The position numbers and the translations under genes were made by a program. 43,691 nt of DNA, from assembly GCA_021817065.1 (NCBI GenBank), contig JAKAWH010000010.1, positions 1-43,691 on the forward strand, read 5' to 3'. The notes under the pieces were generated by a model. That model made no database searches. It saw only the letters and a program-made list of their open reading frames with translations, and was not told the DNA's origin. The first letter of the stretch is position 1, and each line of letters starts with the position of its first letter. Below are positions 13,934 through 43,691 of this stretch, piece by piece. This DNA is from Actinomycetes bacterium (GTDB lineage Bacteria; Actinomycetota; Acidimicrobiia; Acidimicrobiales; JAKAVM01).

Positions 13934-16740
13934 GCATCGCATTACGCTGCGTTGTCGTCGCAGCGGCGCTTTCGGCGGTGCTTTCGGGGGCGTGGCCGGT
14001 CGCAGCGGCGCCCGCCGCGTCCTTGCCGCTCGGACCGGAGGTGCTGCTGCCACACGTGGCGGCTCTTCCTCTTCCCCGGGGAGCGAAAGTGATCGGACCG
14101 GCAGATCCCGCAGGGCTCATCACCGTGGATGTGGTGCTGGCGTTGGGCGACCCGCTCGGTGCAGCTCAGGCGGTTCGTGCGCTGTACGACGCCGGTTCGC
14201 CGTCGTACCACCACTGGATGGCGCCCGGGGATTTTCTCGATAGGTTCGGTCCCTCGCCGTCGACCCGGGCGATGGTCGAATCATGGCTGGCGTCGGGAGG
14301 CCTCGATGCCGTTCGCAACGAGGGCACCGCCGTTCAGGCATCAGGAACGCTCGCGCGCGTCGCGAGCCTCTTGGGCATATCGTTCGAACGGGTGCGAACG
14401 GCTGGGGGAAGGGTCGCCCGGACTTTTCACGATGTGCCGCGTGTACCTGCCGGTATCGCTGGGGAGGTCGTCGCGTTGACCGGCTTGGATTCGGTGCCGT
14501 TTGCCCTTCCTCTCGAACCAGCCACTGCGGCCTACGCCGCCGCCGCCGCTGCTATCACCACTGCTACCGGGGCCACCACCACCACCACCACCATTACTAC
14601 TACTACTACTACTACGTCGTCGACAACCCAACCTCCGGGCACAACCGGGACCTTGTCGGCTCCGTGTTCTCAAGCAACCCAGTTGCAGGGACCGTCCACG
14701 TTCTTGATGACCCAGGTGGGCGCTCACTACGGTATCGACCGTTTGCAGGCAGGAGGGCTCGACGGGCGAGGCGAGACCATCGGGCTCTACGAGATCGGTG
14801 CGCACAATCCCGACGATGTCGCCCAGTACTTTTCCTGCTTCGGGCTGTCCAATTCGCTGAGAACGGTGAAGGTGGACGGCGGCGGGTTCACCGATTCCAC
14901 CGCGATCACCGAAGCCGACCTCGACATCGAGCAGGCCGCCACCCAGGCGCCGGGCGCCTCCCTCATCAGCTACGAAGGTCCGCTCACCCCGAGTGGAATC
15001 GTGGACACTGCCGAGGCGATCGTCACCGACGACCTGGCGATTGCGGTGACCGCGAGCGTGGCGATCTGCGAAGCCGATGCAGCGGGGGCCGGCTTGACCG
15101 CTTCGATCGACCCACTTCTCGAACAGGCTGCCGCACAAGGTCAGTCGGTCTTCGTCGCGGCGGGTGATTACGGCTCGGAAGGGTGCTACCTCGACGGCTC
15201 TACCTCTTTGGCGGCGATGTACCCGGCATCGGATCCCTGGGCGACTGCGGTGGGCGGGTCCTCGCTTTCGGCATGGGTTCCCGAGCAGGTTTGGAACAGC
15301 TGTTCGGGATCTGCTGATTTGAGCCCGTGCCTGTCCCAGTGGGCAGGGATGGTCGCCGGGGGCGGTGGCTATTCGGGGGTGTTCCCGCGGCCGGCGTGGC
15401 AACGGGGACTCTCCCTTCCCCCTGGCCCGGGAGGTGCCGCCTGCGGATCGGATTGCCGGGCAGTGCCCGACATCGCCGCCGACGCCGGCCCGCAGGTCTT
15501 TCGCACCTCGTCGGGTTGGGTGGCGGGAGGAGGAACGTCTGCTGCCGCGCCTCTGATGGCCGCCTTGGTCGCGGATGCGGTCAGCGGGTGCACCGAGCGT
15601 ATCGGCGACTGGGCGCCTGCGCTCTACCAATTGTCCGAACAGGGTATCGGCGGCACGGGGATCACCGACATCACCGCAGGGAACAACGACGCGACCCGTT
15701 CTCACGGGGGGCAGTATCCAGCCGGCCCGGGTTACGACCTGGCGTCTGGGTGGGGCACCCCACTTGCTCCCGGTCTCGCCTGTCCCGAAGTCGATTCGGT
15801 GACACCGGCGGTCGCTCCTGCGGGATCGGCGGTGACCGTTACCGGTCTCGGACTGGAGCGTGCCGCGATCTACGTCGGGGATGTGCGGGCGCGGGTGATC
15901 TCGGCAACGGCCACCTCGGCGACGGTGGCGGTCCCCGCCGGGGCAGGCACCCAGGTCGTGTCCGCGGTAGATCCGATGGGAACGGGTACGGCGACCTCCC
16001 GGTTCACCTACCCGTCGGGAACGATCGGGCCGTCACCGGGTGCCGGCTACTGGATGATCGCCCGGGACGGCAGCGTCTACCCGTTCGGTTCGGTGCCCGA
16101 CCTCGGACCCCTGCCGAGCACCGCCGATGTTACGGCCTTCTGCTCCGATCCGGCCGGGGAAGGCTACTGGGCTACATCGGTGTTCGGCTTCACCGCCGGG
16201 AGGGGCGCGGCGGCACCCTATCCATTGAACGGGAAGCTCGATTCCTTCGTCACCGCGATGGCGGCACTCCCAGCGGCCGCAGGAGCCGCGCCGGGAACAC
16301 CGTCGGGTGGCACGGGCTACTGGATCGCCACTGCAAACGGTCAGGTGGAGACGGCAGGAAACGCTCCGGCGCTCGGGTCACCCCAGGGCGATGGGGTGGC
16401 TCTGGCAGCTCCGATTGTGGGCATGGCGGCGCTACCGGCAGCGGCAGGAACCGGATCGGCAACGGCAGGAACCGGATCGGCAACCCAGGCCGGCGGCACG
16501 GGCTACTGGCTGGTCGCAGCCGATGGAGGCGTGTTCAGCTTCGGTGACGCTTCGTTCTACGGCTCGATGGGCGGGAAGCCTCTGGCCAAGCCGGTGGTAG
16601 GCATCGCGTCCACGAGTGATGGCAAGGGCTACTGGCTGGTCGCAGCCGATGGAGGCGTGTTCAGCTTCGGTGACGCTTCGTTCTACGGCTCGATGGGCTC
16701 CGATCCCCCTGCCGCGCCGATCGTGGGAATTGCAACCTGA
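13930..16740 (+). CDS. Secreted sedolisin (S53 peptidase, kumamolisin-like) with IPT domain and GYW repeats
   Basis: A 936-residue exported acid-type serine-carboxyl peptidase. A signal peptide (residues 1 to about 27, ending PVAAAPA) is followed by a pro-kumamolisin activation domain ([20 protein letters not shown]) and a Thr-rich linker. The catalytic domain begins near residue 255 and has E328 and D332 in [10 protein letters not shown], oxyanion D413 in [10 protein letters not shown] and nucleophile S537 in GGGTSAAAP, so it should be active. An IPT/TIG domain ([17 protein letters not shown]) and four or five GYW-type repeats ending [17 protein letters not shown] complete it. The start GTG 13930 overlaps the mutase stop by 4 bases, an odd pairing of a metabolic and an exported enzyme. 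Confidence 0.92.
14575..14616 (+). repeat. Trinucleotide microsatellite encoding poly-threonine
   Basis: ACC repeated six times, ATT, then ACT repeated six times, then ACG. It encodes a Thr-rich linker between the pro-domain and catalytic domain of the sedolisin. Homogeneous codons within each half suggest slippage. Confidence 0.9.
16443..16484 (+). repeat. 21-bp direct repeat, two copies, in the sedolisin gene
   Basis: Two perfect adjacent copies (16443-16463 and 16464-16484) encode AGTGSAT twice, between two GYW units. The period keeps the reading frame. Confidence 0.9.
16501..16698 (+). repeat. Identical 72-bp segments of two GYW units, spacing 126 bp
   Basis: Bases 16501-16572 and 16627-16698 are identical and encode the [20 protein letters not shown] core of consecutive 42-residue units. 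Identity at the third codon positions points to recent duplication or gene conversion. Confidence 0.9.
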
Positions 16741-16908: not shown

Positions 16909-18552
16909 CTACCGGGATGTGGCTGGTTCTGGTTCGGGGGAGGAGGCCGGGTCGGGTCGCGAACCGCTTTCGGATCCAGCACCCGGCGAGGCCCCGAAGA
17001 AATGTCGCGCACGGACAAGAGCGAACGCTGCCAGTGCACCGGCGGCAACGATCACCGCACCGATCACGAATATCTCGTTCATCGCCCCGGCAAATGCCAC
17101 TCCGGCCGCATGGATGAAGGGTCCGGTGATCTGCGGGCGTCCCCCTCCGAATGAGTACGCCGCCTGCGTTCCTCCTGCAGCCACTCCTTCGGCCAGGCCT
17201 CGAGGTACCGTGTGCAGGACAGCGGTCAGTCCTGAAGAGATCCTGTCCTGGAAGGCGGCGCCAATGGCGGCGATCCCGGTTGCCAGGCCCGCGATTCTCA
17301 TGGTGTTGGAGATACCGGAGGCCATGCCGGTACGGGCGGGGTGAACCACTCCAAGGCCGATCTTGGCAATGGAGGGGTTGGCCAGCCCGACCCCCAGGCC
17401 GGTCAGAATCAAACCGGCCAAGAGGGCCGTCCATCCGGAGTGGATTGTGAGCATATCCATGGTGGCCAGCCCCACCGCGGTGAGCATCAGGGACGATCCG
17501 AGCACCACCCCGGCCGGGATCTTCTCGGTCAACCGGCGGGTGGCGAGGGGCACGGCGAAGGCGAGGAGGGTTGACGGAAGCATCCGCAAACCGCCGGCGA
17601 ACGGTGAGTAGCCCAGGTCATTCTGGAGGTAGAGAGTGATGTAGGGGTACATGGCGAACATCCCCATTCCGATGGCGAAGGTCGCAATGGACACTCCACA
17701 GAAACCCGCATTGCGGAACAAGGACATATCGAACATGGGTCGAACTTGCCGAGTTTCAACGACGATGAAGGCGACCAGGAGGAGGGCGGAACCGGCGAAG
17801 CAGGCGACGATGAGCGGGTCGGACCAGCCCTTGGCGGTCCCCCGCAGCAGGGCGAAGTTGAGGAGGAAAAGAACCCCCGAGAAGGTGAGCAGACCGCCAG
17901 CGTCCACTCGGCGCGCCTCTGGATCGCCGACATTGGGCAGGAGCCGGATCGCCATGACGACGGTGGCGACGCCGACAGGGACGTTGATGAAAAAGATCCA
18001 TCGCCAGCCGAGCCCGCTGGTGATAGCTCCACCCACCAAGGGGCCGATCGCCACCGCGCCTCCGACGGTCGCCCCCCATATACCGATCGCCTTGGCCCGA
18101 TCCGACCCATGGAACTCCTGGCCGATAAGAGCGAGGGAGGTGGCAAACATCGCAGCCCCCCCCACCCCCTGAAGTGCGCGGGCAAGGTTGAGGAACACCG
18201 GACCGGTGGCGGCTCCGCACATCACCGAGGACACGGTAAATACGGCCACTCCGGCGACGAAGATGCGGGTCCGGCCGAACCGGTCGGCCAGCGATCCGCT
18301 AGTGAGGATGAACGCAGACAGGGTCAGCGCGTAGGCGGAGATGACCCACTGCAGGTCAGTGAAGCTAGCGTGAAAAGCCCTCTGGATGGTGGGCAGGGCC
18401 ACCTGGACGATGGTGACGTCCACCAGGAGCATGAACGTGGCGCCACAGATGGCGACCATTCCCAGCCAGCGCTGGCGTGGCGTGCGGGCGGCGGCCGTTC
18501 GCCGAGCCCGTTCGGCGACCGGGTGGTGGCTGAGCTTGCGGACCCGGTTCAC
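16909..18552 (-). CDS. MFS transporter, DHA2 (14-TM, EmrB/QacA-like) drug/proton antiporter family
   Basis: A 547-residue inner-membrane exporter, expected to expel drugs or metabolites using the proton gradient. Motif A-like SGSLADRFGRTRIFV, the first helix MVAICGATFMLLVDVTIVQVALPTIQ and the motif C-like AIGPLVGGAITSGLGWRWIFFINVPVG are typical of DHA2 proteins; hydrophobic segments fit 14 helices. The frame is open upstream to 18660, but that start would overlap the carboxylase gene by 62 bp, so GTG 18552 is preferred. The C-terminus is hydrophilic, Ser/Pro rich. It follows the carboxylase gene closely on the same strand and is probably cotranscribed. Substrate unknown. Confidence 0.88.
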   Translation of the reverse strand: MNRVRKLSHHPVAERARRTAAARTPRQRWLGMVAICGATFMLLVDVTIVQVALPTIQRAFHASFTDLQWVISAYALTLSAFILTSGSLADRFGRTRIFVAGVAVFTVSSVMCGAATGPVFLNLARALQGVGGAAMFATSLALIGQEFHGSDRAKAIGIWGATVGGAVAIGPLVGGAITSGLGWRWIFFINVPVGVATVVMAIRLLPNVGDPEARRVDAGGLLTFSGVLFLLNFALLRGTAKGWSDPLIVACFAGSALLLVAFIVVETRQVRPMFDMSLFRNAGFCGVSIATFAIGMGMFAMYPYITLYLQNDLGYSPFAGGLRMLPSTLLAFAVPLATRRLTEKIPAGVVLGSSLMLTAVGLATMDMLTIHSGWTALLAGLILTGLGVGLANPSIAKIGLGVVHPARTGMASGISNTMRIAGLATGIAAIGAAFQDRISSGLTAVLHTVPRGLAEGVAAGGTQAAYSFGGGRPQITGPFIHAAGVAFAGAMNEIFVIGAVIVAAGALAAFALVRARHFFGASPGAGSESGSRPDPASSPEPEPATSR

Positions 18553-18598
18553 GCGGTGGCAGGTCGGAAGGCGGCAGAGCGCCGAGGCGGCAGGATCC

Positions 18599-20374
18599 TC
18601 ATTCGATAGTGAGAATAACGTCTCCCGGTCCCACCGAGTCGCCGGGGCCCGCCTTGACATCCCCGATCGTGCCCGCCACCGGTGCGGCGATGGTGTTCTC
18701 CATCTTCATCGCCTCCAGGACGCAGACGCCCTGACCCTCCTCAACCTGGTCGCCGACGGCCACCAGCAACTTGATGATGGTTCCCTGCATGGGGACGCTC
18801 ACCGTCCCGTCGGTTGAACCGGCATGCTGGGCACCGCCCGAGTGAGGCCGGGAAGGCTTCTTCATGGTGCCGGGACGGGGTGCCATGGTTTCCAGGTCGG
18901 GGACCCACAGCTTCACCCGATAGAGTCGCCCGTCCACCTCCGCCTGCACCTCCCTCAGGGCAAGAGGCTCCGCGGAGGTCGCGTCGGGGTCGGCAACGGG
19001 GGGAGTGGCCACGACCGGTGGGTCCAAGAGGCTCGAATCCAGCCTCTCCTCCACCCACTTGGTAGAATGTCGCGCAGCAATAAAATCGTCCGATGAGAGA
19101 ATGGCAACGTGGGCGGGGATGGTGGTGGCCACTCCCTCGATCCGGGTTTCCGCCAGTGCCCGGAGGGCCCGCCGGCGGGCCTGTTCACGATCCTCGCCCC
19201 AGACCACCAGCTTGGCGATCAGGTTGTCGTAGAACTGGCTTACCGTGTCGCGGGCTTCGTAACCGGCGTCGGTGCGCACCCCGAACCCGTCGGCACGGCG
19301 GAACCGGGTGATCACACCCGGAGAGGGGAGGAATTTGCCCCCGGTCGGGTCCTCGGCATTTAGGCGGCACTCGATGGCCCATCCCCGGCGGACGATGTCC
19401 TCCTGCTCGAAACCGAGCGGCTCACCGGCCGCCACCCTTAGCTGGAGGGCAACCAGATCGCGACCGCAGATAAGTTCAGTGACCGGGTGCTCGACCTGGA
19501 GCCGGGTGTTCATCTCCAGGAAATAGAACTCACCGTCCTGGTAGAGGAACTCGACGGTCCCGGCATTTACGTACCCGCACGCCTTGGTGACTGCCACCGC
19601 GGCCTGTCCCATTGCCTGGCGAACCTCGTCGGGGAAGTCAGGGGCCGGACTCTCCTCGATCAGCTTCTGATGGCGGCGCTGGCAGGAGCAGTCTCGCTCT
19701 CCCAACCACACCGCGTTGCCGTGGGCGTCGGCGAACACCTGCATCTCGATGTGCCGAGGCCAGCCCAGGTAACGCTCCAAGTAGATCTCGGGGCGACCGA
19801 AATAAGCCTGTGCCTCCCGCTGTGCCGATTCCATGGCGGCGGCAGCGTCGTCGGCGGAGTGGACCACCTTCATCCCCCGGCCTCCGCCCCCATATGCCGC
19901 CTTGATCGCCACCGGCCATCCGTGCTCAGTGGCGAAGTCAACGATCTCCGACACGTCGGTCAGCGGTTCGGAGCGCCCTGGCACCCCCGGTACACCTGCT
20001 GCCTCGGCTGCCAGGCGGGAGCTGATCTTGTCTCCCATTACTTCGACCGCCTCGGGCGGGGGACCGACAAAAGTCGCCCCGGCGTCCGCGACCGCCCGCG
20101 CGAAATCGGCGTTCTCGGCAAAAAAGCCGTACCCGGGGTGGACCGCGTCGGCGCCGCTCCGGCGGATTGCATCCAGGATGGCTTCGGTGTTCAGGTAGCT
20201 CTCTGCAGCCGTCTGGCCACCCAGTGCGTAGGCCTCGTCGGCCATACGGACGTGAAGTGCCTCCCGGTCCAGGTCGGAGTACACCGCCACAGTAGAAATT
20301 CCCATCTCCTGGCACGTTCGGATGACGCGAGCGGCTATCTCCCCCCGGTTCGCAATGAGGACTTTCGAGAACAC
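18599..20374 (-). CDS. Acetyl-/propionyl-CoA carboxylase alpha chain (biotin carboxylase + biotin carboxyl carrier)
   Basis: Carboxylates its biotin with bicarbonate and ATP, and hands the carboxyl group to a separate carboxyltransferase beta chain. The 591 residues contain FSKVLIANRGEIAARVIRTC at the start, HPGYGFFAEN, the glycine-rich ATP loop AAYGGGGRGMKVV, EMNTRLQVEHPVTE, and RxDAGYE-type C-terminal biotin carboxylase text. A linker of about 100 residues leads to the carrier domain with the biotinylation motif EAMKMENTIAAPVAG (lysine is the attachment site). Start GTG 20374 is at the family start; the frame continues upstream without protein-like content. Biotin ligase is encoded divergently 152 bp away. 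Acetyl and propionyl specificity cannot be separated here. Confidence 0.92.
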   Translation of the reverse strand: MFSKVLIANRGEIAARVIRTCQEMGISTVAVYSDLDREALHVRMADEAYALGGQTAAESYLNTEAILDAIRRSGADAVHPGYGFFAENADFARAVADAGATFVGPPPEAVEVMGDKISSRLAAEAAGVPGVPGRSEPLTDVSEIVDFATEHGWPVAIKAAYGGGGRGMKVVHSADDAAAAMESAQREAQAYFGRPEIYLERYLGWPRHIEMQVFADAHGNAVWLGERDCSCQRRHQKLIEESPAPDFPDEVRQAMGQAAVAVTKACGYVNAGTVEFLYQDGEFYFLEMNTRLQVEHPVTELICGRDLVALQLRVAAGEPLGFEQEDIVRRGWAIECRLNAEDPTGGKFLPSPGVITRFRRADGFGVRTDAGYEARDTVSQFYDNLIAKLVVWGEDREQARRRALRALAETRIEGVATTIPAHVAILSSDDFIAARHSTKWVEERLDSSLLDPPVVATPPVADPDATSAEPLALREVQAEVDGRLYRVKLWVPDLETMAPRPGTMKKPSRPHSGGAQHAGSTDGTVSVPMQGTIIKLLVAVGDQVEEGQGVCVLEAMKMENTIAAPVAGTIGDVKAGPGDSVGPGDVILTIE

Positions 20375-27232: not shown

Positions 27233-28173
27233 TGGCCTCCCGAACCGGGATGGGGGGCTCCGGCATTCCACCGGCTCCCGCCGGCTCCGTTCCCCGGTCG
27301 GTTCCTGTTCCGGCGGTCGGGGCGGTGGTGGTCAACTACCACTCCACCCCGGCGACCATCCGATGCCTGGCCAGCCTGCGCGCCGAGGGCGTAGGTGAGG
27401 TGGTGGTGGTGGACAATGACCCTGGTGACCCGTGCAGTAAGGCGGTAGCCCGGGAGGACCCAGCAGCGACCGTGCTTGTTCCCGGTGTGAATCTCGGGTA
27501 CGGGGCTGCCGCCAACCGGGGAGCGGCGGTGCTGGGGGAGGGGATCGAGTGGGTGCTCGTCTGCAATCCTGATCTGGTCTTCAGCCCGGGGAGCGTTGCG
27601 GCTCTGTTGTCCACTTGCTCGGTTCCCGGCTCGCGGGTGGGGATTGCCGGCCCCCAGCTCGTGAATCCCGATGGCACCACCTATCCGTCGGCGCGGCGGA
27701 TGCCGGACCCACTCACCGCCGGTCTCCACGCGGTGGTAGGACTTTTCTCACCGGACAATCGATTCAGCAGGCGGTACCGGATGCAGGATGGCTCCCTTTC
27801 CGGCAGGACGGTGGTGGACTGGGTGTCCGGTGCCTGCTTGCTGGTGCGGCGGCAGGCATTCGAGGCACTGGGGGGCTTCGACGAGTCCTTCTTCATGTAT
27901 GTGGAAGACGTCGATTTGTGCCGCCGGGCCCGGGATGCGGGGTATTCGGTGGTTTTCGAGCCCTCCGCACGTGTCGAGCATGCTCAGGGGACTTCCACCG
28001 CCACCCGGCCTATCGCCATGGTCCTCGCCCACCATCGCTCGGCGATGCGCTACTCGGTCAAGACCATGCGGGGATGGCGGCGGCCCCTGGTGCCGGTCGC
28101 CGCCGGGGTGCTGGCGATCCGGGCGACGATGGCGGTTGGCACCCAGCTCCTCCGGTCCCGCCGGGGCGGCTGA
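27232..28173 (+). CDS. Glycosyltransferase family 2 (WbbL-like, rhamnosyltransferase type)
   Basis: A 313-residue cytoplasmic GT-A glycosyltransferase. VGAVVVNYHSTPATIRCLASL, VVVVDNDP, GVNLGYGAAANRGA, VLVCNPDLVF (the DxD-like site), WVSGACLLVRRQAFEALGGFDESFFMYVEDVDLCRRARDAGYSVVF and ARVEHAQGTST are the WbbL-type signatures. Such enzymes often use dTDP-rhamnose, which fits rmlB/rmlD upstream, but the donor is inferred. ATG 27232 overlaps the previous stop as TGATG. The last ten residues (TQLLRSRRGG) are encoded by the first copy of a 35-bp repeat that continues beyond the stop. Confidence 0.88.
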   Translation: MASRTGMGGSGIPPAPAGSVPRSVPVPAVGAVVVNYHSTPATIRCLASLRAEGVGEVVVVDNDPGDPCSKAVAREDPAATVLVPGVNLGYGAAANRGAAVLGEGIEWVLVCNPDLVFSPGSVAALLSTCSVPGSRVGIAGPQLVNPDGTTYPSARRMPDPLTAGLHAVVGLFSPDNRFSRRYRMQDGSLSGRTVVDWVSGACLLVRRQAFEALGGFDESFFMYVEDVDLCRRARDAGYSVVFEPSARVEHAQGTSTATRPIAMVLAHHRSAMRYSVKTMRGWRRPLVPVAAGVLAIRATMAVGTQLLRSRRGG

Positions 28174-28273
28174 CCCCCCAGCTCCTCCGGTCCCGCCGGG
28201 GCGGCTAACCCCCCAGCTCCTCCGGTCCCGCCGGGGCGGCTGACCCCCCAGCTCCTCCGGTCCCGCCGGGGCG
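28145..28273 (+). repeat. 35-bp tandem repeat, 3.7 copies, at the glycosyltransferase 3' end
   Basis: Units start at 28145, 28180, 28215 and 28250 (AGCTCCTCCGGTCCCGCCGG onwards). Copy one encodes the end of the glycosyltransferase and its stop TGA; the rest are untranslated in that frame. Copies differ only at one base (TGA/TAA). The array fills most of the 166-bp gap to the next gene. Confidence 0.95.
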
Positions 28274-29215: not shown

Positions 29216-30285
29216 AATGCGTGGTGCTGGTCGGTGGTGAGGGGACCCGGCTGCGGCCCCTCACCTACGCGGTCCCCAAGCAGATGCTCCCGATCGTGGA
29301 GATGGCCATGGTGGAGCGGGTGCTCTCCCGCCTGGCGCGGGCGGGCGTGGACGAGGCGGTACTTTCTCTGGGCTACAAGCCGGACGCATTCGTGGAGGCG
29401 TACCCCGACGGGGTGGCTCAGGGAGTGCGCCTCACCTACGCGGTCGAGCCCGAGCCGCTCGATACCGCGGGGGCCATCGCTTTCGCAGCGAGGGCCGGCG
29501 GGATCACCGACACGTTCCTGGCCGTCAACGGGGACGTTCTGACCGATGCATCGCTCGACGAGCTGATCGCACTACACCGGTCCTCCGGTGCAGCGGCCAC
29601 CATCGCCCTGACGCCGGTGGAGGACCCCTCTGCGTTCGGGGTGGTGGATGTCGACCTGTCGGGGCGCGTGCAGGCTTTTGTCGAGAAGCCGCCACCCGGA
29701 ACGGAGCTTACCGACATGATCAACGCAGGCACCTACGTCCTGGAGCCCTCGGTGCTCGCTTCGATCGATCCGAGCCGGCGGGTCTCCATCGAACGGGAGA
29801 TTTTCCCTGCACTGGTTGCCGAGGGGTCCCTCTACGCGGTCGGCAGCGACGCCTACTGGCTGGACACCGGGATGCCCGCGCAGTATCTCACCGCACACCG
29901 GGACCTGATATCGGGAGTGCGGGGGATGGCGCCCCACCCGTCGGCCCGGCGGGTCGACGACGCATTGTGGGTGATCGGGGACCCGGATGTGGAGGGTGAC
30001 GTCGACGAGTCGTTCGTCGGGGAAGGCGCGCATATCGCCGCAGGAGCGACAGTGGACGAGTCGACGGTCGGGGCGCGCTGCACGGTGGCCGCGGGTGCCG
30101 TGGTGCGCTGCTCGGTCCTCCTACCCGGCGTGGTGGTGGAAGCTGGCGCGACCGTCGAGGACTCCATCATCGGAGCCGGCGCCACAGTGGGGTCGATCGC
30201 GTCGCTGTCGAACCTGTCTGTCATCGGAATGGGCGAGAAGATCGAGTCGGGTGCCATGCTGTCGGGCGCGCGGGTGCCCGAATGA
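29212..30285 (+). CDS. Sugar-1-phosphate nucleotidyltransferase with C-terminal beta-helix
   Basis: Forms an NDP-sugar from NTP and a sugar 1-phosphate. The 357 residues begin with MKCVVLVGGEGTRLRPLTYAVPKQMLPI, the pyrophosphorylase signature, then VNGDVLTD (metal-binding Asp), AFGVVDVD, FVEKPP and YWLDTGMPAQYL. From about 235 a left-handed beta-helix of hexapeptide repeats follows (VGEGAHIAAGATVDESTVGARCTVAAGAVVRCSVLLPGVVV). This layout suits mannose-1-phosphate guanylyltransferases and long RmlA-like enzymes; I cannot tell GDP-mannose from dTDP-glucose as product. ATG 29212 overlaps the preceding stop by 4 bases, and the stop overlaps a 17-codon mini-ORF that leads to the epimerase gene. 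Confidence 0.85.
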   Translation: MKCVVLVGGEGTRLRPLTYAVPKQMLPIVEMAMVERVLSRLARAGVDEAVLSLGYKPDAFVEAYPDGVAQGVRLTYAVEPEPLDTAGAIAFAARAGGITDTFLAVNGDVLTDASLDELIALHRSSGAAATIALTPVEDPSAFGVVDVDLSGRVQAFVEKPPPGTELTDMINAGTYVLEPSVLASIDPSRRVSIEREIFPALVAEGSLYAVGSDAYWLDTGMPAQYLTAHRDLISGVRGMAPHPSARRVDDALWVIGDPDVEGDVDESFVGEGAHIAAGATVDESTVGARCTVAAGAVVRCSVLLPGVVVEAGATVEDSIIGAGATVGSIASLSNLSVIGMGEKIESGAMLSGARVPE

Positions 30286-30335
30286 AAGCGCTGGCGGCCT
30301 TTTTTGCCTCGGCCTGCCCCGGGTACCTGCAATGA
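30282..30335 (+). CDS. 17-residue mini-ORF bridging two genes by ATGA overlaps
   Basis: ATG 30282 overlaps the nucleotidyltransferase stop (ATGA), and the stop 30333-30335 overlaps the epimerase ATG at 30332 (again ATGA). The peptide MKALAAFFASACPGYLQ begins like the epimerase (MKALVTGG), and AATGAAAGCGCTGG resembles AATGAAGGCTCTGG, hinting at an old duplication of the start region with a 50-bp spacing. Its role, if any, would be to pass ribosomes along. Whether it is translated is unknown. Confidence 0.4.
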   Translation: MKALAAFFASACPGYLQ

Positions 30336-31267
30336 AGGCTCTGGTCACCGGGGGAGCCGGGTTCATCGGCTCCCACCTGGTCGACCGCCTCCTCGCCGAA
30401 GGATGGATGGTGGAGGTGGTGGACAATCTGGCGACCGGCTCTCTTGCCAACCTTGGCCCCGCCCGTAACGAATATCCCCATCAGGTCCGCTTCACCGAAC
30501 TGGACATCCGCGCTCCCGAGATCGAGGAGTATGTCGTGCTGTGCAGGCCGGAGGTGGTCTTCCACCTCGCTGCCCAGGCGGACGTGCGGGTGAGCGTGGC
30601 CGATCCGGCGCTCGACGCCGAGGTGAACGTGGTGGGCAGCCTCCGCATCGCCGAAGCGGCCCGGAAGGCGGGAGCCCGCAAGATCGTCTTTGCCGCGAGC
30701 GGCGGTACTCTCTACGGCGAGCCCGCCACGATCCCGGTCCGCGAGTCGGCACCCCACAACCCGCTCTCTCCCTACGGCATCGCAAAAAGAGTCGTCTGCG
30801 ACTATCTCGCCGCGTTCCGGGCGCTCCACGGTTTCGAGTTCACCGCCCTGGCGCTCGGCAATGTCTACGGTCCCCGCCAGGATCCCCATGGTGAGGCGGG
30901 AGTGGTCGCCATCTTCGCGGGACTGCTGAGCGAGGGGCGGCCCTGCACTATTTTCGGCGACGGGAACCAGACGCGTGACTTCGTGTTCGTGGACGACGTG
31001 GTGGATGCTTTCGCCAAGGCGGCGTCGAAGGGGGACGGGCAGATCATCAACATCGGGACCGCTACAGAAACATCGGTGAACGACTTGTACGCCACGATGG
31101 CCTCAGTGGCGGGAGTCACCAGCGATCCGGTGTATGCGCCGCCCCGCCCCGGCGAGCTGGACCGCTCTGCTCTCGATGTGCACCGGGCCAAATCCCAGCT
31201 CGCCTGGAAGCCATGGACGACCCTTGCCGAGGGGACCCGGGCAGTGATCGAGGAGGCGCGCGGGTGA
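30332..31267 (+). CDS. NAD-dependent epimerase/dehydratase, UDP-glucose 4-epimerase-like
   Basis: A 311-residue extended short-chain dehydrogenase acting on a nucleotide sugar. ALVTGGAGFIGSHLVDRLL is the NAD loop, VVFHLAAQADVRVSVADPALDAEVNVVGS and FAASGGTLYGE hold the catalytic Ser/Thr region, SPYGIAKRVVCDYL the Tyr-Lys pair, and ALGNVYGPRQDPHGEAGVVAIF and DGNQTRDFVFVDDVV the substrate loop. The pattern fits actinobacterial GalE-type 4-epimerases; the exact sugar is uncertain. It is preceded by a mini-ORF with ATGA overlaps at both ends, and its stop overlaps the first of two tandem mini-ORFs that lead to fabZ. Confidence 0.87.
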   Translation: MKALVTGGAGFIGSHLVDRLLAEGWMVEVVDNLATGSLANLGPARNEYPHQVRFTELDIRAPEIEEYVVLCRPEVVFHLAAQADVRVSVADPALDAEVNVVGSLRIAEAARKAGARKIVFAASGGTLYGEPATIPVRESAPHNPLSPYGIAKRVVCDYLAAFRALHGFEFTALALGNVYGPRQDPHGEAGVVAIFAGLLSEGRPCTIFGDGNQTRDFVFVDDVVDAFAKAASKGDGQIINIGTATETSVNDLYATMASVAGVTSDPVYAPPRPGELDRSALDVHRAKSQLAWKPWTTLAEGTRAVIEEARG

Positions 31268-31302
31268 TCCCCGCCACTGTGGATAAGGGAGCCCGCTGGT
31301 GA
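31264..31302 (+). CDS. 12-residue mini-ORF, first of two coupled repeats before the FabZ-like gene
   Basis: GTG 31264 overlaps the epimerase stop (GTGA); stop 31300-31302 overlaps the next GTG at 31299. The peptide is MIPATVDKGARW. AAGGGAG near its end is the Shine-Dalgarno for the following start. Translation is unproven. Confidence 0.4.
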   Translation: MIPATVDKGARW

Positions 31303-31337
31303 ACCCCGCCTCTCGCAATAAGGGAGCCCGCTGGTGA
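31299..31337 (+). CDS. 12-residue mini-ORF, second of two coupled repeats before the FabZ-like gene
   Basis: GTG 31299 has AAGGGAG at seven bases; stop 31335-31337 overlaps the FabZ-like GTG 31334. The peptide MNPASRNKGARW shares MNPA with the FabZ-like N-terminus and KGARW with the first mini-ORF. Translation is unproven. Confidence 0.4.
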   Translation: MNPASRNKGARW

Positions 31338-32703: not shown

Positions 32704-34857
32704 ATGTCGAGAGGGCTCTTTCCACTGCTCGCCGGGGGCATGTGCTCAACCCTCGGCCTTTTCCTGTCCTTCGGGACAGCACAGAATCCCGCGCTGGGTG
32801 CGACCCCGCCAGCTTCGTCGAGCCACCTGATCCTTCCGCCTGCCAACCCGCCCGCGAACATCCCGGCGAACCCGAACGTGGAGAACTACGGCCCTCCGTG
32901 CTTTTCCCCCTCCTTTGCAGCCCAGTTCTCCAGCCCGGCGTGCATCGATGAGCAGGTGAAGGCCATCGACAATGCCCGGGCGGCGGAGGGGATCGGGCCG
33001 ATGTACCTGCCGTCGGACTTTTCGAGCCTGAGCCTCGACGAGCAGATCTTCGTGGTGACCGACCTCGAACGGGTCGACCGTGGTCTGGTTCCATTCGCTG
33101 GGTTGGTCGACTCGCTCGACCAGGTGGCTCAGACCGGAGCCCAGCCGCCGGGCAAACCGGCCGGATACTGGGGTGACCCGATCCTCCCCTCGGGGTTCAG
33201 CCTTGGTCCTTCGACCGGGCTGGCATATGCGTGCACGGTCTCCGGCAACTCGTGGAGCTGCCCCGGCCTTGGCGATCCGGGAGCCTCCATCGCAGCGGCC
33301 GGCCAGATCAGCCCACTGGACGCCGACTACGGATGGATGTACGAAGACGGATACGGGACATTCAACATCGACTGCACCTCGCCGAGCGACCCGGGTTGCT
33401 GGGGGCACCGGGACAACATCCTGGGGCCATATCCGACCTCGGTGAGCTTCGATGCATCCGCCTTCGGCCAGCCCATCGTGCAGCTATCCGCGGTCATCCC
33501 GGCCACATTGGTGATGGGGGCCGGAGCGCTGCAACCGATCGGCAGCGGTAACCCGGGAGGAACCTGGTCGGCCATTTTCACTTCGATGGTGGGGACGCCA
33601 CCGCCCTTCGTGTACTCCTGGAGCCAGGCACTGGCCGCCGGGGCGGACAGCCCGCCGTTCCCCATCGTGGCGGGCATCTCCCCGAGTCGTGGAGGCACAT
33701 CAGGAGGCACGACGGTGACCATCACCGGATCCGACTTCAGCGGAGCCTCATCGGTGACCATCGGGGGAGTCCCGGCTACTGGCGTGACGGTCGTCTCGCA
33801 GTCCGAGATCACCGCGGTTGTACCAGCTCACGGGCCGGGGACGGTGGACGTGGTGGTGACCACCCCCAACGGTACAAGTGCTGTCTCGTGCGCCGATCAG
33901 TACCGCTTCGGGACACCGACCGGTGCGGGTTACTGGATCGCCGACGTGACCGGTGACGTCTTCGCCTGCGGGGATACTTCTCCATTGGGCTCACTTTCCC
34001 AGCTCGATCCCTCCTCTCCGCCGGGGGGTGCAAACGCGGCATACCTGTCTGGCCTGATCGTATCCCTGGCGATCACTCCGGATGCGCGGGGATACTGGCT
34101 GACCGACACCTCCGGCAACGTGTACGCCTTCGGGGATGCCGCCTATCGAGGGTCGATCTCGCAGCTCGATCCCGCCGCGCAACCCGGCGGCGCCAACGCT
34201 GCCACACTTCCCGCACCCGTCGTCTCTATGGCTGCCACCCCAGACGGACGAGGGTACTGGTACGTGGACACCTCCGGCGACGTGTATTCGTTCGGCGACG
34301 CGTCCTACCTCGGGAGCATCTCACAACTCGATCCCGCCGCTCAGCCCGGCGGCGCCAACGCTGCCACACTTCCCGCACCCGTCGTCTCGATGGCTGCCAC
34401 CCCCGATGCGAAGGGCTACTGGATGATCGATGATGCGGGCGACGTGTACTCGTTCGGCGACGCCTCCTACCAGGGATCGATCGGCCAGCTCTCTCCTACC
34501 GCAGCACCCGGGGGTGCCAACGCAGCACACCTCGCCCACCCCATGGTGGAGGTGTGCGCGACCCCCGATGCGAAGGGCTACTGGATGATCGATGATGCGG
34601 GCGACGTGTACTCGTTCGGCGACGCCTCCTACCAGGGATCGATCGGCCAGCTCTCTCCCACCGCAGCACCCGGGGGTGCCAACGCGGCAGTACTGTCAGC
34701 CCCGATCGTTTCGATGACGCCCACTTCCGGCGGCGGAGGCTACTGGATGCTGTCGGCCAATGGGGGAGTGTTCAGCTTCGGCAACGCGGGCTTTGCCGGG
34801 TCGGTGGCCGATCTGAGTGGCATCCAGCGGACGGTTGGGATCGCAGGGGTGGGGTAG
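32704..34857 (+). CDS. Secreted CAP-like/IPT protein with GYW beta repeats
   Basis: A 717-residue exported protein, function not assigned. A signal peptide (to about residue 33) is followed by a domain resembling CAP/SCP proteins: IDNARAAEGIGPMYLPSDFSSLSLDEQIFVVTDLERVDRGL, then YGWMYEDGYG and CWGHRDNILG, the usual 'W..HR.NIL' motif. An IPT/TIG domain (GISPSRGGTSGGTTVTITGSDF) links to five or six GYW units with DGDVYSFGDASYxGS, here 54 residues each because of a QLxPxxxPGGANAA insertion. The second half shows near-identical DNA copies. ATG 32704 is preferred to TTG 32698. It shares repeats and IPT with the sedolisin, suggesting a common surface-attachment or binding module. Confidence 0.82.
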   Translation: MSRGLFPLLAGGMCSTLGLFLSFGTAQNPALGATPPASSSHLILPPANPPANIPANPNVENYGPPCFSPSFAAQFSSPACIDEQVKAIDNARAAEGIGPMYLPSDFSSLSLDEQIFVVTDLERVDRGLVPFAGLVDSLDQVAQTGAQPPGKPAGYWGDPILPSGFSLGPSTGLAYACTVSGNSWSCPGLGDPGASIAAAGQISPLDADYGWMYEDGYGTFNIDCTSPSDPGCWGHRDNILGPYPTSVSFDASAFGQPIVQLSAVIPATLVMGAGALQPIGSGNPGGTWSAIFTSMVGTPPPFVYSWSQALAAGADSPPFPIVAGISPSRGGTSGGTTVTITGSDFSGASSVTIGGVPATGVTVVSQSEITAVVPAHGPGTVDVVVTTPNGTSAVSCADQYRFGTPTGAGYWIADVTGDVFACGDTSPLGSLSQLDPSSPPGGANAAYLSGLIVSLAITPDARGYWLTDTSGNVYAFGDAAYRGSISQLDPAAQPGGANAATLPAPVVSMAATPDGRGYWYVDTSGDVYSFGDASYLGSISQLDPAAQPGGANAATLPAPVVSMAATPDAKGYWMIDDAGDVYSFGDASYQGSIGQLSPTAAPGGANAAHLAHPMVEVCATPDAKGYWMIDDAGDVYSFGDASYQGSIGQLSPTAAPGGANAAVLSAPIVSMTPTSGGGGYWMLSANGGVFSFGNAGFAGSVADLSGIQRTVGIAGVG
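34161..34684 (+). repeat. 162-bp coding repeats with near-identical pairs
   Basis: Bases 34399-34522 nearly match 34561-34684, and 34161-34241 nearly match 34323-34403, all at 162-bp spacing (54 residues). Neighbouring pairs are more alike than distant ones, a sign of stepwise duplication or conversion. Confidence 0.88.
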
Positions 34858-41392: not shown

Positions 41393-42217
41393 ATGCTGGT
41401 ATTCGCTTCGCTATGGGGCTCGCCCGGGGTGACCACGGTGGCCTACCAGGTGGCCTCGGCACTCGTCGGGTCGCAGGGGAACTTCGCTCTGCTCGCCGAG
41501 TGCGATCCGTCGGGAGGGGACTTGGCCGTTCGTCTGGCCATGCCTGTCGCACCCGGCATGGCAACCTTGATGGCAGCGGCGCGTCGTGGTCTGGTTGTCG
41601 ACGACATCTGGGAGCATGTGCAGGAGTCGCCCCATCGGGTGGGGATGCTTTTCGGGTTGGATTGCGCCGAGCATTCTGCGGGGGCGGGCGGGATGTGGGA
41701 GACCTGCGCCCGAGCGCTGGCGCGGGTGGACGAATTACAGGTGCTGGTCGACGTGGGACGGTTGGAACCGGGGATGGCAGGCTCGCGCGCGTTTCTCGAG
41801 AGCGCAGGGTCGGTGGTCCTCTGTGCTCGGCCTGATGCGTCGTCTCTGGTTCATACGGCTCGACGCATCGACACTCTGCGGGCCGTGACCCCTGACGTTC
41901 GTCTTGTACTGATCGGTGAGGGTCCCTACGGTCCCCGGGAGGCAACCGAGGCGACAGGAATCGAGGTGGTCCGGTCGATGGGAAGAGAACCGTCGGATCG
42001 GGACTGGGTGGAGCTTGCGTCCGGGCTCGCGGAGAGTTCCTGCCGGAGCGCGCCACCGGCCGCCAAGGACATTGTCTCATCCCACACCCCGCCGGCAGAG
42101 GAATGCTTCAGCGTCGATTCGCCGCGGGAAAGGGACGGACTAGGCGCCATCGCGGGAGTATCGATTCACGAGGTGCGTGCCCGGATGGGCCTTCGGGTGG
42201 GGTCGGGAAGCCGATGA
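41393..42217 (+). CDS. CpaE/MinD-like ATPase-fold protein with degenerate Walker A
   Basis: A 274-residue P-loop-fold protein of the Tad locus, thought to help localise the pilus machine. LVFASLWGSPGVTTVAYQVASAL stands where MinD/CpaE proteins have KGGxGKT; both lysines are absent, so ATP hydrolysis is uncertain. LLAECDPSGGDLAVRL is the following switch-like block, and VLVDVGRLEP and VVLCARPDASSLVHTARRI complete the Rossmann-like core. The GSPGVTT variant recurs in actinobacterial Tad loci as I recall. The C-terminal 60 residues are low complexity. Its stop overlaps the cpaF start (ATGA). Confidence 0.82.
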   Translation: MLVFASLWGSPGVTTVAYQVASALVGSQGNFALLAECDPSGGDLAVRLAMPVAPGMATLMAAARRGLVVDDIWEHVQESPHRVGMLFGLDCAEHSAGAGGMWETCARALARVDELQVLVDVGRLEPGMAGSRAFLESAGSVVLCARPDASSLVHTARRIDTLRAVTPDVRLVLIGEGPYGPREATEATGIEVVRSMGREPSDRDWVELASGLAESSCRSAPPAAKDIVSSHTPPAEECFSVDSPRERDGLGAIAGVSIHEVRARMGLRVGSGSR

Positions 42218-43578
42218 GGCACGACCTGGTCCGGCAAATCCGGATGGAAGTGGCAGAGTCGCTGTCTTCGGCCCCCGGTCCTGCGGTGGCCGGGAGCGAA
42301 CGGCGTGCCTTTGCGCGCCGGAGGGCCATCGAGGCACTGGACGCGCGGTGGGCAGCCGGCATCGCCCATGGTGAGGACCATCTGGCCCCGGAAGAAGAAG
42401 AGGAAATCGTCGAAGCAGTAATGGCCGCGCTTTTCGGGCTGGGGCGGCTCCAGCGGCTCATCGATGATCCGGAGGTGGAGAACATCGACGTGAACGGCCA
42501 CGACGTGGTCTGGGTCCGGTACGCCGACGGGGCCAAAGTCCTCGCAGATCCGGTGGCCGATTCGGACGGCGAGCTGATCGAGCTGATCCGGATGGCAGCG
42601 TCCCGGCTCGGACTTTCCGAGAGGCGCTTCGACGCAGCCCGCCCTGAACTGGACCTGCGCCTTCCTGATGGGAGCCGCCTGTCCGCGGTGATGTCGGTGT
42701 GCGAGAGGCCGTGCCTTTCGGTTCGGCGCCATCGCTATTCCGATCTAGGGCTGGACGATCTTGTGGCGATGGAGATGCTCGACTTGCAGGTGGCCGAGCT
42801 GCTGGCGGCCGCGGTTCGGGCGCGCAAGAACATCATCGTCTCGGGAGCGATGAACTCGGGCAAGACCACTTTGCTCCGCGGCCTGGCGTCGGAGATTCCG
42901 CCCAGCGAGCGGATCGTGACCATCGAGCAGGCGTTGGAGCTCGGTCTCGAGCGGATGGTCGATCGGCATCCCGACTGCGTCGCATTGGAGGCTAGAGAAC
43001 CCAATACCGAAGGTCAGGGCGAGATCGGCATGTCGCGGCTTGTCCGCCGCAGCCTGCGGATGGACGCAGATCGGGTGATTGTGGGGGAAGTTCTCGGGGA
43101 AGAAGTCATCCCGATGTTGAACGCGATGTCTCAGGGGCGCTCCGGGTCGATGTGCACGATTCATTCGGATTCCTCAGCGGGAGTATTCCGCCGGATCGCC
43201 GCATATGCTGCGCAAGCTCCCGAGAGGTTGTCCCTGGAGGCGGCTAATCTCCTGATCGCCGGCTCCGTGCATTTCGTCGTCTACATCGAGTCGCGCTACG
43301 AGGTGGCTGAAGCGGCGGTGGATGCGTGGGGCGACCCGGTGTCAGACGTCTTTTCGGGATCGCCGTACATCACGGGCCGCCTGGTGCGCCGGGTGTCATC
43401 GGTCCGCGAGGTGGTCGATGCCGACGGGCCGCAGGTGATGTCCAACGAGGTGTGGCGGCCCGCACCCGGCGGGGGAACGATGCCAGGGGCGCCCCTGCAA
43501 TCGGCAACCCTGGAGGAGCTGGTCGAGCAGGGCTATTCGCGCCAGGGGGCCGGCACTACTGCAGAGGCGTGGCAATGA
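42214..43578 (+). CDS. Tad pilus secretion ATPase, CpaF/TadA-like
   Basis: A hexameric type II/IV secretion ATPase powering Tad pilus assembly. The 454 residues show an N-terminal domain with LFGLGRLQRLIDDPEVENIDVNGHDVVWVRYADG, RRHRYSDLGLDDLV, Walker A GAMNSGKTT (K217), the Asp/Glu box ERIVTIEQALELGL, Walker B-like ADRVIVGEVLGEEV and the His-box GRSGSMCTIHSDSS. All are standard for CpaF. ATG 42214 overlaps the preceding stop by 4 bases. The last eleven residues (QGAGTTAEAWQ) are encoded by the first copy of a 35-bp repeat that continues past the stop as coupled mini-ORFs. Confidence 0.93.
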   Translation: MRHDLVRQIRMEVAESLSSAPGPAVAGSERRAFARRRAIEALDARWAAGIAHGEDHLAPEEEEEIVEAVMAALFGLGRLQRLIDDPEVENIDVNGHDVVWVRYADGAKVLADPVADSDGELIELIRMAASRLGLSERRFDAARPELDLRLPDGSRLSAVMSVCERPCLSVRRHRYSDLGLDDLVAMEMLDLQVAELLAAAVRARKNIIVSGAMNSGKTTLLRGLASEIPPSERIVTIEQALELGLERMVDRHPDCVALEAREPNTEGQGEIGMSRLVRRSLRMDADRVIVGEVLGEEVIPMLNAMSQGRSGSMCTIHSDSSAGVFRRIAAYAAQAPERLSLEAANLLIAGSVHFVVYIESRYEVAEAAVDAWGDPVSDVFSGSPYITGRLVRRVSSVREVVDADGPQVMSNEVWRPAPGGGTMPGAPLQSATLEELVEQGYSRQGAGTTAEAWQ

Positions 43579-43613
43579 TCGGGGCCGGCACTACTGCAGA
43601 GGCGTGGCAATGA
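43575..43613 (+). CDS. 12-residue mini-ORF, first coupled repeat after cpaF
   Basis: ATG 43575 overlaps the cpaF stop; stop 43611-43613 overlaps ATG 43610. Peptide MIGAGTTAEAWQ repeats the cpaF C-terminus. AGAGG at seven bases is a suitable Shine-Dalgarno. Translation is unproven. Confidence 0.4.
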   Translation: MIGAGTTAEAWQ

Positions 43614-43648
43614 CGGGGGCCGGCACTACTGCAGAGGCGTGGCAATGA
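43610..43648 (+). CDS. 12-residue mini-ORF, second coupled repeat after cpaF
   Basis: ATG 43610 to stop 43646-43648, which overlaps ATG 43645. Peptide MTGAGTTAEAWQ. Same SD arrangement as the first. Translation is unproven. Confidence 0.4.
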   Translation: MTGAGTTAEAWQ

Positions 43649-43691
43649 CGGGGGCCGGCACTACTGCAGAGGCGGGGGCGGAATGGGGTGG
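43645..43691 (+). CDS. Start of the next Tad gene (partial, runs off the window)
   Basis: ATG 43645 opens a frame without stop to the window end: MTGAGTTAEAGAEWG. Its first ten residues come from the repeat. By position after cpaF the gene is probably tadB, a membrane platform protein, but nothing in the 15 visible residues proves that. Confidence 0.4.
   Translation, partial: MTGAGTTAEAGAEWG

Follow-up and report, generated by a model that had tools for sequence, protein, structure and literature searches.

Genes joined by a 4-nt overlap of stop and start codon (-4 nt, NTGA) are translationally coupled by termination-reinitiation (PMC6728339, PMC10666635, review PMC12548453); reporter work puts the optimum for reinitiation at -4/-1 nt and finds little of it left at gaps of about 20-40 nt (PMC10666635; review PMC12548453). 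Short upstream ORFs may also deliver ribosomes to a gene, a principle used in the bicistronic designs of biotechnology (PMC12548453). The same review summarises the work of Supply et al. 1997 on the mycobacterial interspersed repetitive units (MIRUs), short junction repeats with a small ORF coupled to the flanking gene at -4 nt spacing (PMC12548453).

The locus described here, a 35-bp tandem array at the 3' end of the Tad pilus gene cpaF, shares features with each of these systems and coincides with none. As in ordinary NTGA coupling, ATGA/GTGA start/stop overlaps with an upstream SD-like motif link genes of one operon; unlike in plain NTGA coupling, one to three tiny ORFs lie between the genes and the hand-over would be multi-step. 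As in MIRUs, small ORFs overlap their flanks at what was apparently once a direct stop/start junction. MIRUs can occur in tandem and form a dispersed, apparently mobile family, whereas the 35-bp unit was copied locally from the 3' end of cpaF and is not dispersed. Similar to the ribosome-delivering upstream ORFs, the mini-ORFs may serve just to bring the ribosome to the next start; unlike them, they occur naturally one after another between two complete genes, and do so at dozens of junctions in a single genome. The array also resembles VNTR or slippage arrays in its near-identical head-to-tail copies with a period of 35, but differs from them in that it straddles a stop/start junction and its period keeps successive reading frames linked. 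Overall, the chemistry of each step is that of ordinary NTGA coupling and MIRUs are nearest in anatomy. Within the open-licence literature, no paper was found that describes serial relay mini-ORFs as a feature of a whole genome.

The window, i.e., the whole stretch of DNA analysed (43,691 nt), is contig C11 (G000:C11) of the 2.99-Mb draft genome of an uncultured acidimicrobial bacterium, in 169 contigs and 93% complete. A preliminary description, made from the sequence alone, had reported a 35-bp unit repeated 3.7 times across the cpaF stop, each copy with AGAGG, a 7-nt gap and ATG, giving 12-codon mini-ORFs joined by ATGA; TRF recovered the array with a 96% match as the strongest of the last 9 kb of the window, and inspection of the sequence confirmed the arrangement within the units (Table 1). 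The cpaF stop TGA (43576-43578) lies inside unit 1 and overlaps the first mini-ORF ATG. All stop/start overlaps are of the 4-nt or 1-nt kind that is typical of coupling: ATGA at 43575, 43610 and 43645, each 7 nt after an AGAGG, and TAATG at tadB. An SD-like motif, a helpful and not obligatory feature of NTGA coupling, is thus present ahead of each reinitiation start in the array. Mini-ORFs 1 and 2 are exact 12-codon frames. It had also been pointed out that 35+4=39 is divisible by three, which holds: the period of 35 is 2 mod 3, and therefore the chain stays intact at any copy number. The C-terminal peptide of cpaF, GAGTTAEAWQ-stop, is kept, since the duplication reproduced one and the same stop.

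Table 1. Positions of cpaF, the array and the relay mini-ORFs (window coordinates unless a locus is named)
Feature	Position	Strand	Remarks
Relay mini-ORF MRILPPRRSAAFRPATA-stop	18549..18602	-	Upstream of MFS transporter
Relay mini-ORF, 31 codons	26208..26303	+	UDP-glucose/GDP-mannose dehydrogenase / epimerase
Relay mini-ORF MKALAAFFASACPGYLQ-stop	30282..30335	+	Nucleotidyltransferase / epimerase (N-terminus MKAL)
Relay chain, two 12-codon mini-ORFs, VIPATVDKGARW-stop and VNPASRNKGARW-stop	31264..31337	+	Period 35 duplication; NAD-dependent epimerase / FabA-like gene
Upstream ORF	41393..42217	+	Directly coupled to cpaF by ATGA at 42214; CpaE/TadZ suggested by position; no Pfam match at 1e-3
cpaF/tadA, Tad pilus ATPase	42214..43578	+	Pfam T2SSE 5.7e-31; NCBIfam TadA-family ATPase 2.6e-66, below curated cut-off
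35-bp array, 3.7 copies	43545..43674	+	TRF; runs on into contig C158 (L003 1-131)
SD-like AGAGG, 7 nt ahead of mini-ORF 1	43563..43567	+	Repeats: 43598-43602, 43633-43637, 43668-43672
Mini-ORF 1, MIGAGTTAEAWQ-stop	43575..43613	+	ATGA overlaps with cpaF stop and mini-ORF 2; frame open to 43613
Mini-ORF 2, MTGAGTTAEAWQ-stop	43610..43648	+	Sequence
Mini-ORF 3	43645..43691	+	Cut at contig end; C158 version MTGAGTTAEVWS-stop (L003 99-137)
19-nt contig tail	43673..43691	+	Conflicts with C158 at five T positions (contig comparison)
tadB	L003 137-979		C158; start overlaps TAA of mini-ORF 3

The right end of the window coincides with the end of contig C11, and a search of the organism's own genome revealed that contig C158 (locus L003) starts with 126 nt identical to window positions 43547-43672. 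Past these shared bases the window reads CGGGGGCGGAATGGGGTGG and C158 TGTGGTCGTAATGGTGTGG. Because all five differences are T to G (four) or T to C (one), the last 19 nt of the window probably stem from sequencing error, a pattern typical of a noisy read end retained as the contig tip, with C158 as the true continuation. In C158 a third mini-ORF follows, the TAA of which overlaps the tadB ATG by 1 nt (TAATG, L003 137); the idea that the next gene begins directly after mini-ORF 2 must therefore be abandoned. Near-identical arrays in this assembly are rarely longer than ~140 bp, whatever their period (TRF), so that arrays may have been collapsed and the copy number carries some uncertainty. The count of 3.7 copies is favoured, if not certain, as the variant unit ATGATC adjoins both flanks within one 126-mer.

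The junction of tadB and tadC, both coding for T2SSF proteins, carries a chain of its own (L003:976-1055, C158): two 13-codon mini-ORFs, MTRSVRTAGGGSQ-stop and MTRALGAVGVEGR-stop, joined by ATGA, with a period of 38 (2 mod 3) and two units that are 25/38 identical. This chain is older than the cpaF-tadB array, and two adjacent junctions of one operon hence harbour chains differing in age and sequence. The MIRU-like feature of small-ORF ends overlapping the flanking ORFs is present at both junctions, and the VNTR feature of near-identical tandem copies in the 35-bp array (TRF).

Comparison was made with 59 relatives (Acidimicrobiales MAGs), of which 55 have cpaF homologues; no further genome of the same genus was among the genomes searched, and the analysis is that of a single draft MAG. 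The array sequence had no good match in these relatives, the two matches obtained (E about 0.007-0.009 over 21-29 nt) being chance-like. In 38 of the 43 classifiable Acidimicrobiales loci tadB starts, in the direct frame, within or upstream of the cpaF stop, mostly as ATGA/GTGA, and tadB-tadC is likewise direct (ATGA/GTGA) in nearly all closer relatives. Because the relatives are mostly direct at both junctions, the chains are insertions into directly coupled junctions.

Other Tad loci of Acidimicrobiales (L147, L148 and L155, about 1160-1260) have in common a relay mini-ORF of 68 nt, diverged in sequence and identical in length, which is possibly a conserved relay. At the end of cpaF in Streptomyces (L189-L224) we often observed a tiny GTGA...ATGA step to tadB of 5, 8 or 11 nt, all 2 mod 3, with two steps of 5 in some loci; other spacings are also present.

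To place the array in its genomic context, chains were surveyed in 1.10 Mb of the genome including the window and C158, about a third of the draft MAG, with a home-made codon-usage gene caller; a chain was defined as one or more mini-ORFs in which every start overlaps the stop before it and every stop the start after it. Chains link 73 of 447 close co-oriented gene pairs (16%): 60 consist of one mini-ORF, 12 of two and one of three, with step lengths clustering at 32-65 nt. A direct RTGA overlap was found in 121 of the 447 pairs, and a further 30 pairs with an RTGA stop were neither direct nor chained. The chained pairs are real genes, since 18 of the 20 proteins from 10 randomly sampled pairs have Pfam domains.

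The phase of these chains was tested next. Of the 103 pairs that have an RTGA stop and no direct overlap with the following start, 73 are chained. Lengthening the stretch from the upstream stop to the downstream start in silico by 1 or 2 nt reduced the number to ~16 and ~10, respectively, whereas insertion of 3 nt left ~70 chains of 103. The result holds without the 13 chains that have visible repeats (60/90 vs 11.7 and 9.8 in the shifted phases). Bacterial genes in general favour an A as the fourth base, directly after the start codon (PMC5850271), an effect that is covered by the phase-shift control. Dozens of chains in the sole phase that links the two genes suggest that coupling is actively preserved.

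Compared to other genomes, the share of chained pairs is unusually high. Among close pairs it amounts to 4.5% in a Streptomyces replicon (750 kb), 5.6% in Rhodococcus pRHL1 (500 kb), 1.5% in E. coli and 2.9% in Acidimicrobiales Tad loci. Four Acidimicrobiales controls, all small, gave 2.1% (G005, 200 kb, 75% GC), 10% (G011, 112 kb, 4/39), 1.8% (G002, 140 kb) and 0% (G003, 159 kb). Against an earlier, smaller control pool (23/683), in which Streptomyces was represented by 350 kb and Rhodococcus by 200 kb, the 73/447 of this genome are in clear excess (Fisher P = 4e-14). Control chains also tend to exceed the shifted expectation (Streptomyces, 10 vs 2-3; Rhodococcus, 9 vs 5.5 and 0.6), for which reason relays may be general, with this genome as an extreme case.

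Signs of use were sought at the mini-ORF starts. SD-like motifs occur 9-14 nt ahead of them at a frequency of 0.31, close to that of directly coupled starts (0.33) and above the background at random RTGA (0.12) and at stops that are not RTGA (0.17); just about a third of mini-ORF starts thus have the motif, as is the case for direct starts. Taken together with the phase test, this supports, with more force than any single locus could, the suggestion in the preliminary description that ribosomes are handed over from cpaF to the next gene: chains in the coupling phase are in large excess and the mini-ORF starts carry SD motifs as true starts do. Codons of the mini-ORFs weakly resemble the coding sequence of the genome (log-odds -0.04 vs -0.26 and -0.18 in the other frames), which is expected if some derive from gene ends and is no argument for functional peptides. 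No match to a known RNA element was found in Rfam for L003 1-2000.

The origin of the chains was approached through tandem arrays. Arrays with a period of at least 20 and at least 90% identity reach 55/Mb in this genome vs 11/Mb and 12/Mb in the Streptomyces and Rhodococcus replicons (~5x; TRF). Five clear junction arrays bridge two coding ORFs, and the periods of all five are 2 mod 3: 35 (cpaF-tadB), 35 (window 31264), 35 (L070), 53 (L080) and 62 (L124). A general bias of tandem arrays to 2 mod 3 was considered and found unconvincing: over all arrays with a period of at least 20, no clear preference over 1 mod 3 was apparent (10 vs 8). Because these two non-coding phases are about equal, the bias is confined to junctions, the sites at which coupling matters; it comes from few arrays, and the broad phase test carries the weight.

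In-register repeats are clear in just 13 chains, and 4 of 66 reached P<0.01 in a local alignment test. In the remaining chains, the 20 nt preceding the mini-ORF start match those preceding the gene start at 6.96 positions of 20 vs 5.87 in permuted pairs (0/3000 permutations), and this likeness hints that more chains arose by duplication than show visible repeats; duplication as the origin of every chain is not proven. An interspersed or mobile repeat was rejected, as the 35-bp unit was found neither elsewhere in the genome nor in the 59 relatives, and mini-ORFs of different junctions had no cross-matches at E<=1e-3.

Coupling-phase junction duplications were located in L124 (11808-11949, 62-nt), L080 (10093-10235, 53-nt) and L070 (10835-10924, 35-nt arrays), and a 65-nt junction repeat in coupling phase on the minus strand of L119 (about 8437). 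In L003 (5105-5213), a long ORF carries at its 3' end a 50-nt array (2 mod 3) that has a GTGA relay frame with no coding ORF directly after it. The window contains another 35-bp array (28142-28273, 3.8 copies) near a gene end and without an RTGA relay; the period shared with the cpaF array is possibly a coincidence. Two degenerate coding repeats of 126 and 162 bp (16494-16737 and 34114-34685) were also noted, one with 'GYWLVA...GGVFSFGDA'-like text and the other with 'GDVYSFGDASYQG'.

We consider it fairly likely that a stop/start junction duplicated in tandem persists where it serves as a termination-reinitiation relay. The cpaF/tadB junction would at first have been a direct or near-direct stop/start overlap, later tandemly amplified in this lineage, with each 35-nt copy supplying an SD-like motif, a start and a -1-phase stop overlapping the next start. 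A ribosome finishing cpaF would reinitiate on a 12-codon mini-ORF, terminate at the next overlap and so step on to tadB; the mini-ORFs would be relays for termination-reinitiation and not peptides. An insertion of ~105 nt should uncouple cpaF and tadB, because reinitiation is nearly lost at gaps of 20-40 nt, and relays would matter for the same reason (PMC10666635), as each hop would be held at -4 or -1 nt. A junction duplication of any length would spare both proteins, and hand-over would be kept just by a period of 2 mod 3; copies could then be gained with limited harm to coupling, the chain being intact at any number. Use of the relays by ribosomes, and selection on coupling as the force behind the phase bias, are what we infer from these patterns.

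The main rival is neutral slippage, in which the genome expands short tandem repeats everywhere and the junction array is tolerated and idle. The ~5x density of arrays compared to both control replicons speaks for it, as do the copies themselves, which are almost identical and hence recent, in a unit confined to this one locus. Slippage of this kind predicts an even spread over phases, however, at odds with 73/103 chains in the coupling phase and 10-16 in the shifted ones, and it leaves aside that two adjacent junctions of one operon both have periods of 2 mod 3. We regard it as rather unlikely as the whole account; the 'harmless slippage' of the preliminary description is retained as an origin of the arrays and not as their full explanation. 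A copy-number rheostat, the tuning proposed in the preliminary description, would have the unit count decide what fraction of ribosomes gets through to tadB, with slippage as the source of heritable, phase-variation-like differences in pilus expression. The three near-identical units at the pilus operon would suit it, as would the period, under which the chain survives any change in copy number. Were some ribosomes lost at every hop, each added copy would be expected to bring TadB down a further step relative to CpaF. The array RNA has a moderately stable fold, better than that of shuffles (z = -2.5), so ribosome passage could expose SD sites; the fold is at least partly due to copies pairing with each other, and RNA structure was set aside as evidence. 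Similar chains at housekeeping pairs (such as sugar-nucleotide genes and P5C reductase/AMP-binding enzyme) make a pilus-specific cause unneeded, and we hold the rheostat to be improbable. We think an artefact very unlikely, in which a k-mer assembler would have produced the copy number or the array itself where a contig ends: the window does end in the array with a conflicting 19-nt tail, the overlap of C11 and C158 (126 nt) is about one large k-mer, and near-identical arrays in the assembly seldom pass ~140 bp, but the array occurs with identical unit variants in both contigs, chains with diverged units (25/38) cannot stem from mis-assembly and many relay chains lie deep inside contigs.

Beyond this locus, the relay reading leads to a wider proposal, which we consider about as likely as not: relay mini-ORFs would be widespread and unannotated, gene pairs with apparent gaps of 20-90 nt being coupled via one or more ATGA/GTGA-linked mini-ORFs often born by junction duplication, with this lineage as an extreme (~66 per Mb) and the cpaF-tadB array caught in the act. 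Chained pairs would, by our reasoning, score as uncoupled in surveys of intergenic distance. The service by post-termination ribosomes of genes tens of bases apart is debated; if unannotated mini-ORFs span such gaps, coupling extends to many pairs now taken as 'uncoupled', and the phase test lets the sequence of any genome answer this question. The young arrays, having one, two or three relay steps, can serve as natural intermediates. If the proposal is true, many of the short ORFs seen in ribosome profiling have a purpose without a functional peptide.
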